Shown here: piece by piece, positions 25,260 through 29,544 of the stretch
How the letters are laid out: each line of letters opens with the position of its first letter
Position numbering within the stretch: position 1 is the stretch's first letter
Assembly (NCBI GenBank): GCA_003224525.1
Contig: QHZB01000211.1
Coordinates: forward strand, 1 to 32,173
DNA: 32,173 nucleotides
Direction of reading: 5' to 3'
Source: Acidobacteriota bacterium
GTDB lineage: Bacteria; Acidobacteriota; Terriglobia; Acidiferrales; UBA7541
Notes under the pieces: model-generated
The model's input: only the letters and a program-made list of their open reading frames with translations
What the model was told of the DNA's origin: nothing
The model's database searches: none
Made by a program: the position numbers and the translations under genes

Positions 25260-25697
25260 CTAGTTAGCCGTTGAACGGATGCTCTTTTCCGCCCAGCGTT
25301 GCCGCACTGCAGCCAGAAATTTCTCTTTGTCCTTTTGCATTAGCCGCACCAGCGTTTGATTACCGGTATCTTCGTGCCCGGCTGCCCACAGGACCATTTC
25401 CGTGAGGACCGGCGCAAGATCGATTCCTTTCGTTGTGAGCGAGTAAATCAGCTTTCGCCCATCCGATGGATCTCGCTCGGTGGTGATGATTCCATGAGCT
25501 ACCAGCTTCCGCAGGCGATCTGCCAATATGTTCGTCGCGATTCTTTCGTAGGACTCCAAGAATTCCTTGTAACTCCGGAATCCCCGGAGCATCATGTCGC
25601 GGATGATCAGCAACGACCAGCGATCGCCCAAAATCTCCACGGAAGCATTCAGCGGACAACCCGACCGCCGCTTTGGACTCGACGTCTTCTTTGGCAT
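25260..25697 (-). CDS. HxlR-family (DUF24) winged-helix transcriptional regulator
   Basis: A 145-residue single-domain regulator: SGCPLNASVEILGDRWSLLIIRDMM, then GFRSYKEFLE, IATNILADRLRKLVAHGIIT and RLIYSLTTKG-type wing (RKLIYSLTTKG, 81-91). The conserved N-terminal cysteine (Cys14) is the redox-sensing residue in members such as YodB and HypR, where it reacts with electrophiles, so sensing of quinone/aldehyde or oxidative stress is possible. I choose the ATG at 25697: an upstream in-frame ATG at 25727 falls inside the inverted repeat at 25720-25736. It is divergent from the BNR gene and probably controls it and itself. C-terminal 30 residues are charged and helical. Confidence 0.9.
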   Translation of the reverse strand: MPKKTSSPKRRSGCPLNASVEILGDRWSLLIIRDMMLRGFRSYKEFLESYERIATNILADRLRKLVAHGIITTERDPSDGRKLIYSLTTKGIDLAPVLTEMVLWAAGHEDTGNQTLVRLMQKDKEKFLAAVRQRWAEKSIRSTAN

Positions 25698-25719
25698 AAT
25701 TCGACGGTAGCATATTTTC

Positions 25720-25736
25720 ACTTGCATTTCACAAGT
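25720..25736. promoter_or_regulatory. Candidate HxlR operator (ACTTG-N7-CAAGT)
   Basis: ACTTG-CATTTCA-CAAGT is a 5-bp perfect inverted repeat with 7-base centre, 22 bases upstream of the regulator ATG and 63 bases upstream of the BNR ATG. Its size and position fit a dimeric winged-helix regulator site in a divergent promoter. Confidence 0.5.
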
Positions 25737-25782
25737 AAGATGGGCACACTGCCTCTCGTTATGCGGGCGATCCTTAGTCTAT

Positions 25783-25797
25783 CTTACAAGGAGTAAG
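25783..25797. promoter_or_regulatory. Second inverted repeat overlapping the BNR ribosome-binding site
   Basis: CTTAC-AAGGA-GTAAG is a perfect 5-bp inverted repeat whose centre contains the AAGGAG Shine-Dalgarno of the BNR gene (ATG at 25800). It may be a second regulator site or a hairpin that hides the ribosome site. Confidence 0.45.
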
Positions 25798-25799
25798 TT

Positions 25800-26984
25800 A
25801 TGAGCGGAGTACGGGTTCTGGTTGGCACACGCAAGGGCGCGTTCGTCCTGACGTCGGACGGCAAGCGCGAACGCTGGGGTGTAAGCGGTCCCCATTTTGC
25901 AGGCTGGGAGATGTACCACGTCAAGGGCTCGCGCGTCGACCCCCATCGGCTGTATGCGTCGCAATGCAGCGGCTGGTTCGGGCAGATCATTCAGCGGTCC
26001 GATGATGGCGGCAAAACTTGGACGCAGCCGGGGACGCCGCCGGGCGAACGGACCACCCCAGAGGGAATGCCGAAAGGCGAGAGCAACAAGTTCGTGTACG
26101 ACACCTCCGCGCAAACCGGCAAACCCCTCACCACTCATCAGTGGTATGACGGCACACAGCATCCGTGGGAGTTCAAGCGCGTCTGGCATCTCGAACCGTC
26201 GCCTACCGATCCGGACACCGTCTACGCCGGAGTAGAAGACGCCGGCTTATTCCGCTCGACCGATGGCGGACAGAACTGGCAAGAACTCGCCGGACTGCGC
26301 GGCCATGGCACAGGGCCCAAGTGGCAGCCCGGCGCCGGCGGGCTGTGCCTCCACACCATAATTCTCGATCCGAAGGATCCCGGCCGGATCTACATCGCCA
26401 TCTCGGCCGCGGGCGCCTTCCGTACCGACGACGCCGGCAAGACCTGGCGGCCGATCAACAAGGGACTGCATTCCCAATATATCCCAGACCCGAATGCCGA
26501 GATCGGCCACTGCGTTCACCACGTCGCCATGCACTCGTCTCGCCCGAACGTACTCTTCATGCAGAAGCACTGGGACGTGATGCGCAGCGACAACGCCGGC
26601 GACTCTTGGCAGGAAGTCAGCGGCAACTTGCCCACCGACTTCGGCTTCGTGATCGACGTTCACGCCCACGAGCCGGAGACCATCTACGTCGTCCCCATCA
26701 AGAGCGACGGGGAGCACTTTCCGCTCGATGGCAAGCTGCGCGTGTACCGCAGCCGCACGGGAGGCAACGAGTGGGAGGCGCTCACGAAAGGTCTCCCGCA
26801 AAACGACTGTTACGTGAACGTATTGCGCGACGCGATGGCCGTGGACTCGCTCGATAAATGCGGCGTGTATTTCGGCACCACCGGAGGCCAGGTGTACGCC
26901 TCGGCCAACGCCGGAGACTCCTGGACCCCCATCGTCCGTGACCTTCCGGCCGTGCTTTCTGTCGAGGTCCAGACGCTGCCGTGA
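25800..26984 (+). CDS. BNR/Asp-box beta-propeller protein (sialidase-like fold)
   Basis: A 394-residue protein with no signal peptide, so apparently cytoplasmic. Six Asp-box-like S-x-D/N-x-G-x-x-W motifs are seen: SDDGGKTW (67-74), STDGGQNW (153-160), TDDAGKTW (209-216), SDNAGDSW (263-270), SRTGGNEW (318-325) and SANAGDSW (368-375), each on a propeller blade; VYAG-, IYIA-, IYVV- and VYFG-type strands precede most. This is the fold of sialidases and photosystem assembly factor YCF48, but no sialidase catalytic Arg triad was recognised, so a binding role is more likely. The AAGGAG site and ATG at 25800 are well placed. Its stop overlaps the start of the MoaD-like gene by 4 bases, so the two are translationally coupled. 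Confidence 0.88.
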
Positions 26985-27277
26985 TTCGCGTCATACTCCC
27001 CGGACATTTGCGGGCGCTGGCGCGCGTCACTGCCGAGGTGCAGCTCGACGTCAAGGGTCCCGTCACGCAGCGCTCGGTGCTCGACGCCCTCGAAGCACAG
27101 TATCCGATGCTGCGTGGCACGATCCGCGATCATGTCACGCAGGAGCGTCGTCCGTTCCTGCGCTTCTTCGCTTGCGAGGAAGACTATTCCCTTGAGCCGC
27201 CTGACACCCCGCTGCCCGACGCCGTCGCATCGGGGAAAGAGCCCCTTCTCATCATCGGGGCGATTGCCGGCGGCTAG
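26981..27277 (+). CDS. MoaD/ThiS-family (ubiquitin-fold) protein with Gly-Gly tail
   Basis: A 98-residue beta-grasp protein: [24 protein letters not shown] (strand, turn, strand), [14 protein letters not shown] (central helix), [22 protein letters not shown] and a C-terminus [13 protein letters not shown]. The final Gly-Gly is the signature of sulfur carriers (MoaD, ThiS, CysO-like) and ubiquitin-like modifiers, adenylated by an E1-type enzyme. The start is a GTG whose bases overlap the BNR stop (GTGA at 26981-26984). It could be the small subunit of molybdopterin synthase, since moeA, moaC and mog are 1.8 kb away, but pairing with a BNR protein rather than MoaE suggests a different role. The carrier function is inferred from the tail; the partner is unknown. 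Confidence 0.87.
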
Positions 27278-27303
27278 CCCCCGGCTAGCCCTCGGCTAGC
27301 CCG
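27271..27303 (+). repeat. Three tandem 11-bp repeats CGGCTAGCCC(C/T/G)
   Basis: Three copies start at 27271, 27282 and 27293. The first contains the MoaD-like stop codon (TAG at 27275). Because 11 is not a multiple of 3 the three TAGs (27275, 27286, 27297) fall in all three plus frames, and CTAG being self-complementary gives the same on the minus strand. Confidence 0.9.
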
Positions 27304-27419
27304 GATTTATCACGACGCAAGCACGTGCTCTCAGGCTGATCCATACTCGGCGTCGACATACGCTGGAAACGATTTCACACATCTGTTAGTTTTCACGGGT
27401 AGACCTCTGGAGGAAATTC

Positions 27420-28051
27420 ATGGAATCAGCTATTCAAACGGTCTCGAAGACAAGCCTCTGGGTTGGACGCATCATCAGCACGCTCGTAGTACTGTTCCTG
27501 CTCTTCGACGCCGTCGGCAAATTGATGAAAATCGCTCCTGTTCTTCAGGCATTCACACCGGATTCTCCACCAGCCTCGCGGTTCCCATCGGGGCGGTCCT
27601 GCTCGCCTGCACGATCCTCTACGTGATTCCGTCTACCTCGATCCTCGGCGCCATCTTGCTGGCAGCCCATCTTGGAGGCGCAACTGTTACCCACCTGCGC
27701 GCCGGTCAACCTTTCTACTTCCCAATTATTTTTGGCGTGCTCGTCTGGGGAGGACTTTACCTGCGCGAGGACCGGCTGCAGGCCCTCATCCCGCTGCGAA
27801 GTCCCAACGCGCCCTCGCAAGCGCAATCCACGCAGGTGCGCATGAGTGGCCCTGAGCAGGGAGGCCCGGTCGCAAGTCAGGCACCCCCGTATTCAACCTG
27901 GAGAGGACCGCGCCCGGAAGATATGCGACTGCGGTTCCAAGAGACCAGCGAAAATCTCGAATTAATTTCTCTGCGCCACAGGCCAGAATCAAGCAACTTC
28001 ATGCCAGGTCTCCGTGTGCCGGCTGTTGGCGCGCCACAGGCTGTGCGGTAA
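27420..28051 (+). pseudogene. DoxX-like membrane protein, frameshifted
   Basis: A strong GGAGGAAATTC-ATG start at 27420 opens MESAIQTVSKTSLWVGRI, STLVVLFLLFDAVGKLMKIAPVLQA, then falls out of frame in SPPASRFPSGRS. The continuation is intact in another frame from 27554: HTGFSTSLAVPIGAVLLACTILYVIP, ILGAILLAAHLGGATVTHLRAG and PIIFGVLVWGGLYLREDRL (separate stretches), the helices 2-4 of the four-helix DoxX-like membrane family. So there is a net shift of one base near 27551-27554. The restored protein would end its family homology near 27810; the frame then stays open to 28051 without recognisable domain. It follows the tandem repeat region by about 117 bases, with no other gene between. Confidence 0.8.
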
Positions 28052-28120
28052 AAGTTAACATAAAACCTAAACTGTCTAATATTGTACAGACACTACTACC
28101 CTCGTGTCGTAGATTTTTAG

Positions 28121-29544
28121 ATGCTTAGAACCGAAACATTCACGGGGCCAGCATGGCAATGGGAAGGGCTGGCCCCCGTGAGTGTTTCCCAACTCTCAAT
28201 GGCTTCGACCCCACAGGCCCGCCTCAAGCGAGACGTCCTTAGCGGATCGGAAGGCAGACATCTGCCTCTGCACATCCTCTTTGTTCATAGTCACGTAGCG
28301 GAAGTAGAGCGCTGCCTGCAAGAGCTCAACAAGATGCATTTCACGGTCAGCGCGGAGATCGTTAGAACTCCCGAGGAGTTTAGCGAACGGCTGGGCTCCT
28401 ACTCCTATGACCTTGTCGTCGCCGAGTACCCCAGCCCCGATTGGCGGGAAACGCAGGCACTGGAACTCTTGCAGCTATCGAAGAGGCAAATCCCGCTTAT
28501 CTTCGTCGGGGGCACGCTGCAACGTGAGACGGTGGCGGAGTTCATTACAAGAGGTGCCTACGATTGTATTGAAATGGGGCACATTGGTCATCTTCCTGTA
28601 GCCGTTCATCAGGCGCTGGATGAGAAAGCATTGCGCGATGAACGCGACCGAGCCGAAAACGGGCTGAGGCATTCAGAAGCACGCTACCGCGCCTTGGCAG
28701 GAAATCTAAGCTACGGAATTTGCCGCTGCGGCCGCGACGGCAAGTTCCTCGAAGTGAATGAGGCCTTGGTGAAAATGCTCGGGTATGCCTCAAAAGAGGA
28801 ACTATTGGGTGTAAACCTTGTGGGTGCCCTGATTCAAGATGCTGACAAGCGGGCGCAATTGCTGGGGCAATCGGGCCAGCAAGGTCTAGTTGATCCCATC
28901 GAAATAGAGTGCAAGCGAAAGGACGGCGCACCCCTGAAGATCCGGGTCAGCGGACAAGAAGTCCTCGGTGAGCAGGGCGGGCTGGACGCTTATGAGGTGA
29001 TCACTGAAGATGTCACCAAACAGCGTCAGTTGGAGGATCATCTGCGTCAACAGGCGGCCCGCGACCCATTGACGGGACTAGCCAACTACCGCCGCCTTGC
29101 GGAAGTGCTGGATATGGAAATCAAGCGTTCCGTGCGCACAGGGCGGGAGTTTGCCCTGTTGTTATTTGATCTGGATGGATTGAAGCAAATCAACGACCGT
29201 ACGGGCATCTGACGGGAAGCCATGCGCTCTGCCGGGTGGCCGATGTTTTGAGCTTTTGCCGGGACATCGATACGGCGGCGCGCTACGGCGGGGACGAGTT
29301 TGCAGTTGTGTTACCGGAAATAGGCGCAGAGGCGGCCAACCAGGTGGCGCAACGTATCTGCGACAGCATTGCCAATGACGGGATGGAACCGCTGCTTTCC
29401 GTCAGCATAGGCGTTGCAGTTTATCCCCATGATGGGGAAAGGATGGAAGCCCTCTTACGGAAGGCAGACGCGGCTATGTATGCGATGAAGACCAAAAAAC
29501 GCGAGCTTTTTGACGCAAGGCCGCGCGTTGCTTGTCAAACGTAG
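28121..29544 (+). pseudogene. Receiver-like/PAS/GGDEF diguanylate cyclase, frameshifted in GGDEF
   Basis: The first frame encodes a receiver-like domain (about 48-165) in which the phospho-acceptor position is Glu (LVVAEYPSPDW) and the conserved lysine is absent (YDCIEMG), then a coiled linker (EKALRDERDRAENGL), a PAS domain (about 185-300, SEARYRALAGNLSYGICR to AYEVITEDVTKQRQLE) and the GGDEF start DPLTGLANYRRLAEVL to DLDGLKQINDRTG. It stops at TGA 29210-29212. The rest continues in another frame: GHLTGSHALCRVADVLSFCR, ARYGGDEFAVVLPEIGAE, LLSVSIGVAVYP and DAAMYAMKTKKREL, ending at 29544. One G missing in ACGGGCAT (29201-29208) explains the break. The GGDEF motif itself is intact but cannot be reached. 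The ATG at 28121 has no clear ribosome site. Confidence 0.82.

Follow-up and report, generated by a model that had tools for sequence, protein, structure and literature searches.

The BNR propeller gene examined here and the adjoining gene for a small ubiquitin-fold protein ending in Gly-Gly (Ubl) form a conserved module. The two genes lie on a 32,173-nucleotide stretch of an Acidobacteriota bacterium (contig QHZB01000211.1), here referred to as the window. The arrangement in an earlier note made from the sequence alone, in which the BNR and Ubl genes overlap by GTGA and an hxlR gene is divergent from them, was borne out by the open reading frames and the sequence (Table 1), and the two genes are probably made from one transcript. 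On the 3' side of the Ubl gene, a DoxX-like gene (27420-27900) loses its frame partway in comparison with its relatives at loci L076 and L077, and a gene assigned by eye to the GGDEF type is broken into two frames (28121-29212 and 29236-29544). Together these breaks hint at sequencing or assembly errors in the contig.

Table 1. Features of the propeller-Ubl locus, in window positions
Feature	Position	Strand	Basis and remarks
BNR gene	25800..26984	+	ORF, 394 aa; Pfam BNR and Sortilin-Vps10 above cut-off; top PDB match 3b7f
Ubl gene	26981..27277	+	ORF, 98 aa; GTG start; C-terminus AIAGG
GTGA overlap, BNR stop and Ubl start	26981..26984	+	Read from sequence
hxlR, divergent regulator with Cys14	25260..25697	-	Pfam HxlR; shorter start preferred, longest ORF from 25727
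Probable HxlR operator, ACTTG-N7-CAAGT	25720..25736	.	Rare in window and conserved beside hxlR

Conservation of the pair was surveyed in the order, among named species genomes, in the phylum and on plasmids. In 95 genomes of the order, Ubl was found in 73 (E 1e-3) and a BNR match in 83 (E 1e-20), and 72 of the 79 Ubl matches had a same-strand BNR match no more than 3 kb away. In 38 of these 72 the spacing was identical to that of the window pair. The seven unpaired matches comprised one in a genome without any BNR match (G044), four on a different contig from the BNR match (G067, G080, G084 and G087) and weak second matches in G033 and G034. A 13-row BNR alignment, scanned against named species genomes, returned at least 592 stretches, including at least 581 relatives. 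The best 80 of these loci were used, a sample that leans toward close relatives (74-89% identity), and in 78 of the 80 a same-strand Ubl followed the BNR gene; none was found for L095 and L108, second look included. Presence was scored by searching every frame with a profile, which replaced greedy ORF calling after the latter was seen to lose Ubl genes to antisense ORFs (Ubl cluster in 31 of 80 loci). Record names for these loci include Acidobacteria, Nitrospira, Gemmatimonadetes, Planctomycetota, Anaeromyxobacter, Deltaproteobacteria and others, mostly metagenome bins of which some are possibly mis-assigned.

The 396 Acidobacteriota genomes sampled contained 146 BNR matches (E 1e-80 or better) in 140 genomes, and at least 103 of the 146 had Ubl within 3 kb, a lower bound resting on 150 Ubl rows among the matches listed. 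Among these listed matches both gene orders were found, BNR-Ubl at least 57 times and Ubl-BNR at least 46 times, and no Ubl lay on the strand opposite BNR. When seven of the 43 BNR matches without a listed Ubl were examined, five had a Ubl in the stretch and two (L168 and L170) did not. Strong Ubl matches in the phylum, among those listed, adjoined a BNR match in 51 of 53 cases, and the remaining two begin no more than 310 bases from a contig end. Some of the listed Ubl matches in the phylum (e.g., G132, G190 and G259) sit in open frames of ~480-570 aa, which may be fusions or frames that are long by accident. G008 (C34 3804-4996) has a second and more distant pair, with a 34%-identical Ubl adjoining a BNR match in a 705-aa open frame.

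BNR matches occurred in 24 plasmid records, of which eleven were also examined. The pair was present in records of Pseudomonas aeruginosa, Burkholderia stagnalis, Mitsuaria, Cupriavidus metallidurans, Paraburkholderia, Arthrobacter and Nonomuraea (the last without Gly-Gly), and one Streptomyces and three Rhodobacterales records carried the BNR gene with no Ubl in the stretch searched. The earlier note had set conservation of the pair across genomes as a test of its proposal, and the two genes are indeed kept together in the order, in the best 80 of at least 581 loci and in the phylum. Propeller and Ubl probably work together, since they are found paired in distant groups and with either gene first.

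Phylogenetic analysis gave a similar pattern for both proteins. The linked members of a 23-Ubl tree split into a 98-residue type (11 rows), which includes the window Ubl, and an 89-residue type (7 rows) ending LSGG, each supported at 99/98; the Arthrobacter Ubl joined neither. Among 32 BNR proteins in a second tree, those paired with the two Ubl types made up two clades of 11 and 8 rows, each at 100/100. In each tree the 89-residue type, in which the gene order is reversed, mixed Acidobacteriota with Beta- and Gammaproteobacteria. With the same two types common to both trees, the pair seems to travel together, and the deeper joins are unsure because of long branches.

The BNR protein is a member of the 3B7F Asp-box propeller family. 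It scored above the Pfam cut-offs for BNR (42.4 bits) and Sortilin-Vps10 (52.7 bits) and matched YP_299179.1 (PDB 3B7F, Reut_B4987, Ralstonia eutropha JMP134) over the full length at 33% identity. The profile match to this family was likewise full-length (E 2.7e-113, chain residues 24-390). The structure model of the BNR protein (pLDDT 82, pTM 0.87) had 3b7f at the head of its Foldseek list (E 2.9e-34, TM 0.80 by query, 33% identity), and a model of the L088 fusion compared with 3B7F gave Z 43.6 and rmsd 2.6 with 352 aligned. The six Asp-boxes reported in the earlier note were present as six hairpin positions, read by eye, but only three of them keep the strict S/T-x-D-x-G-x-x-W motif, N or T replacing D in the remaining three. 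Predicted strands fell into seven blades by our own grouping, in which three short outer strands were placed by eye. The part consulted of a 2009 survey describes the 3B7F protein as a seven-bladed propeller of uncharacterised function whose tunnel measures 9 by 11 A (PMC2716378). The first strand of the BNR model begins at residue 3, which leaves no room for a signal peptide.

Relatives of this protein are annotated as exo-alpha-sialidase or sialidase family protein, and GH74 xyloglucanases come after 3b7f in the fold list, as might be expected if it were a sialidase or other glycosidase and the Ubl a bystander. We regard this as improbable: the full-length match is the seven-bladed 3B7F, whereas GH33 sialidases are six-bladed according to the same part of the survey (PMC2716378), the lack of a signal peptide does not fit, and the Ubl is conserved beside the BNR gene. 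A GH33 sialidase was disfavoured on the seven blades of our strand grouping and on 3B7F as best match, and the annotation name exo-alpha-sialidase is probably misleading. Outside the Asp-box motif, eight polar residues (T10, K12, H185, S202, H240, Q255, H257 and R343) were invariant in 13 BNR sequences (alignment A1), and all eight lie in or adjoin the D-A and B-C loops with none in the opposite loops; the enrichment of invariant residues on this face was not significant (20/168 vs 2/45, p 0.18).

The Ubl has the ThiS/MoaD-type beta-grasp fold with a free Gly-Gly end. Against Pfam ThiS the window Ubl scored 13 bits, below the cut-off of 22.5, and four of seven linked relatives scanned passed with 27 to 48 bits; the MoaD/ThiS-like label of the earlier note is thus weak on the window protein by itself and is carried by its relatives. 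A profile of the linked Ubls matched SAMP1 (E 6e-4), CysO (E 1e-3) and a MoaD, and the Ubl part of the fusion model showed the elements E-H-E-H-E-H-E at a block pLDDT of 78-97, with 47 for the last block. The C-terminus could be read to its end at 73 of the best 80 of at least 581 loci, five others being cut by contig ends and two lacking Ubl. Gly-Gly was the exact C-terminus in 70 of these 73, and the other three run on by 1, 2 or 14 residues. Residues beyond Gly-Gly were also seen in three of the five Ubls found on second look in the phylum loci, and the BNR-linked Ubl-like protein of Nonomuraea (L073 6081-6392) ends just ahead of the Gly-Gly position.

A protein modifier, conjugated through Gly-Gly to the propeller or to other proteins with the propeller as adaptor, would account for so exact an ending, and the archaeal modifier SAMP1 is among the nearest solved relatives. 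SAMP1-like proteins can carry sulfur too, and this likeness does not decide between conjugation and sulfur carrying. No E2, E3 or JAB was seen among 22 recurrent neighbour clusters, a weak argument given that the clusters were named by eye and genes were missed, and we consider conjugation a serious but rather unlikely rival. Alternatively, the Ubl could be a stable non-covalent subunit of the propeller, with Gly-Gly at most a binding peptide. The Nonomuraea protein, which adjoins a BNR gene without Gly-Gly, and the several relatives with residues beyond it are compatible with a subunit, as is Ycf48, a similar propeller fold that binds its partner's C-terminal tail in the sections consulted of PMC10403576. 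However, the ending is stricter than plain binding seems to require and the fusion model gave no confident arrangement of the two parts, making a plain subunit an unlikely, if serious, candidate.

A further explanation is that the Ubl is the ordinary MoaD of a molybdenum-cofactor cluster, since a family search found moeA (22207), moaC (23462) and a MoCF-domain, moaB-like gene (24734) just upstream of the pair. However, moeA, moaC and moaB-like genes occurred in just 2 of the wider loci of the best 80 of at least 581, both near relatives. The genome has four other ThiS/MoaD matches, one of which adjoins its sole moaE match on contig C110, and in the Ubl tree the window Ubl stands apart from this C110 moaD, whose own place is unsure on a long branch. 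With the low ThiS score in addition, an ordinary MoaD is very improbable; it was rejected on the separate moaD-moaE pair, the tree position and the rarity of cofactor genes at other loci. Distinctness from the genome's ordinary MoaD, the other test set in the earlier note, therefore came out in favour of its proposal.

That note was also correct that neither an E1 nor moaE lies beside the pair: the two E1 matches of the genome fall on contigs C3 and C156, and its moaE on C110. No rhodanese was found among the ORFs around the pair in a Pfam scan. E1 was present in 94 of the 95 genomes of the order, including all 73 with Ubl, and because E1 genes are near universal their presence says nothing about the pair; co-occurrence with E1 was set aside as a useless test. 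On contig C3 of this genome (G000, 26466-29140), another Ubl was clustered with an E1 and with genes that by eye look like cysteine synthase and JAB genes.

The regulator scored 66.3 bits against Pfam PF01638 (cut-off 20.8), confirming an HxlR winged helix. Its start is probably at 25697, not 25727, because the conserved palindrome overlaps 25727 and the L077 protein starts at the next Met, and the Cys14 pointed out previously is correct for this shorter form. In other HxlR members an N-terminal Cys senses electrophiles. The palindrome ACTTGCATTTCACAAGT (25720-25736) occurs once in the window against 0.02 expected. Its ACTTG-N7-CAAGT form was followed in the 30 BNR loci retained when the order was searched, the window itself (L035) included. 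All 17 loci in which hxlR is divergent carry it immediately ahead of that gene, two of them with a single altered outer base. It was likewise present in one of three loci with same-strand hxlR and in none of the ten whose stretch lacks hxlR, L053 among these offering 5 upstream bases only. Where the gap widens it keeps company with hxlR and not with the BNR gene, and from this pattern it is a probable HxlR operator. Of the two inverted repeats originally seen in the gap, this one is beyond chance and conserved; CTTAC-N5-GTAAG at ~25783-25797 was discounted for its 5-base arms, its position over the ribosome-binding site and the lack of a counterpart upstream in L077, the one nearest-layout relative checked.

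HxlR genes were present in 21 of the best 80 of at least 581 loci, 13 sharing the strand of the BNR gene and 8 lying on the other. The base rate of 3 in the 6.47 Mb genome predicts ~0.4 in the 852,050 bases of the 80 loci, a comparison of counts from different models over loci related to each other. At this frequency HxlR is not a fixed part of the cassette. The hxlR gene is lineage-limited, and HxlR control of the pair in this lineage is plausible; the stress induction proposed in the earlier note is putative.

Other gene families recur around the pair. By raw count, at least one of the VOC, ECF42, DUF1428, DUF1579 and AHSA1-type genes was found in at least 41, and DoxX-type genes in at least 19, of the best 80 of at least 581 loci; these are lower bounds, with the full 6 kb on both sides present in 40 of the 80 only. 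The search models were built from the neighbour clusters themselves, and the family names (DoxX included) are our presumed assignments from sequence features. ECF42 factors are accompanied by a nearby YCII-type gene, and ECF-10 of Pseudomonas putida, an ECF42, affects oxidative stress and antibiotic sensitivity, as given in the excerpt consulted of a review (PMC8999054). The recurring VOC, DUF1428, DUF1579, AHSA1, DoxX and ECF42-type sigma factor neighbours suggest that the pair helps to deal with reactive or foreign small molecules.

In our best explanation, a cytosolic seven-bladed propeller of the 3B7F type and its own Gly-Gly Ubl would constitute a two-gene module, whose transcript in this genus may be controlled by the divergent HxlR. 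A general E1 (from C3 or C156) would adenylate and thiocarboxylate the Ubl, and the charged tail would dock on the propeller, most likely near Lys12, His185, His240, Gln255, His257 and Arg343. There the Ubl would hand its sulfur to a small molecule held on the propeller. CysO hands on sulfur in this way for CysM and MoaD for MoaE; charging, docking and transfer in the present pair are inferred. Sulfur transfer is the leading reading because of the dedicated neighbour, the strict Gly-Gly end and the shared E1. There is a precedent for one E1 shared among Ubls: mycobacterial MoeZR sulfurates MoaD1, MoaD2 and CysO in the portion consulted of PMC3227635. We tentatively favour the two-gene module with an E1-charged Ubl whose tail serves the propeller, probably in sulfur transfer.

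Structure prediction did not place the tail. The earlier note had proposed predicting the complex with the Gly-Gly tail in a BNR pocket. The propeller-Ubl fusion model gave the tail no confident position, the last three residues having a pLDDT below 50, and pTM was 0.71 vs 0.87 for the propeller alone, so the model lends the complex no support. Also counting against the favoured reading are the Nonomuraea Ubl that lacks Gly-Gly, the Ubls with residues beyond it and the BNR genes that have no Ubl nearby. The alignment folded (A7) had BNR rows added and Ubl rows 61-87% identical to the fusion, as judged from its summary. Alignment A6, without the added BNR rows, was viewed whole and aligned well, and A4 was dropped, its Ubl rows seemingly having been put on the BNR part.

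ThiS, MoaD, CysO and similar Gly-Gly sulfur carriers each serve particular client proteins, and the module can be set beside several such systems. MoaD-MoaE likewise has a small Ubl and a larger partner encoded by neighbouring genes, but the partner here is not MoaE. Archaeal SAMP1 has the Ubl fold and a weak profile match in common with the window protein, whose family here is tied to a propeller gene. In CysO-CysM-E1, too, a Gly-Gly Ubl lies beside its client, and mycobacterial CysO is sulfurated by MoeZR in the part consulted of PMC3227635; here, in contrast, the candidate client is a propeller and E1 is not adjacent. The genome's own CysO-like cluster is that on C3, with its CysM-like and JAB-like genes named by eye. 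Ycf48 is seven-bladed, matches the BNR protein in fold and binds its partner's C-terminal tail, the D1 tail wrapping around the outside of the propeller (PMC10403576, in the sections consulted). It differs in being a photosystem assembly factor of the lumen with no Ubl, a likeness of fold only.

Open-access literature searched by title and start of abstract, with subscription papers outside its scope, yielded no description of the pair among the papers listed. In word searches of two ubiquitin-fold surveys, one contained no mention of propeller, sialidase or BNR (PMC1779556) and the other a single mention of propeller, in a figure legend (PMC1949818). PA1356 is the putative PAO1 name of the BNR gene. 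In the one paper found to mention PA1356, the text consulted reports lower expression of this gene under salts and a promoting effect on adhesion and biofilm formation (PMC11538994).

Many soil bacteria keep this propeller gene side by side with a Gly-Gly Ubl gene, and the presence of the pair in cultivable Cupriavidus metallidurans, Pseudomonas and Burkholderia makes it open to direct testing. It is possible that these genes represent a widespread and undescribed ubiquitin-fold pathway, in which the propeller would serve a Gly-Gly sulfur carrier as its dedicated acceptor or enzyme. The two genes would then pass together from one phylum to another and be tuned, as part of small-molecule stress defence, by regulators of the HxlR or ECF42 type. 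If true, a function would be given to a structure solved in 2007 and still without one in the 2009 survey, as far as the part consulted goes (PMC2716378), and the propeller client would be a new partner fold for Gly-Gly sulfur carriers.
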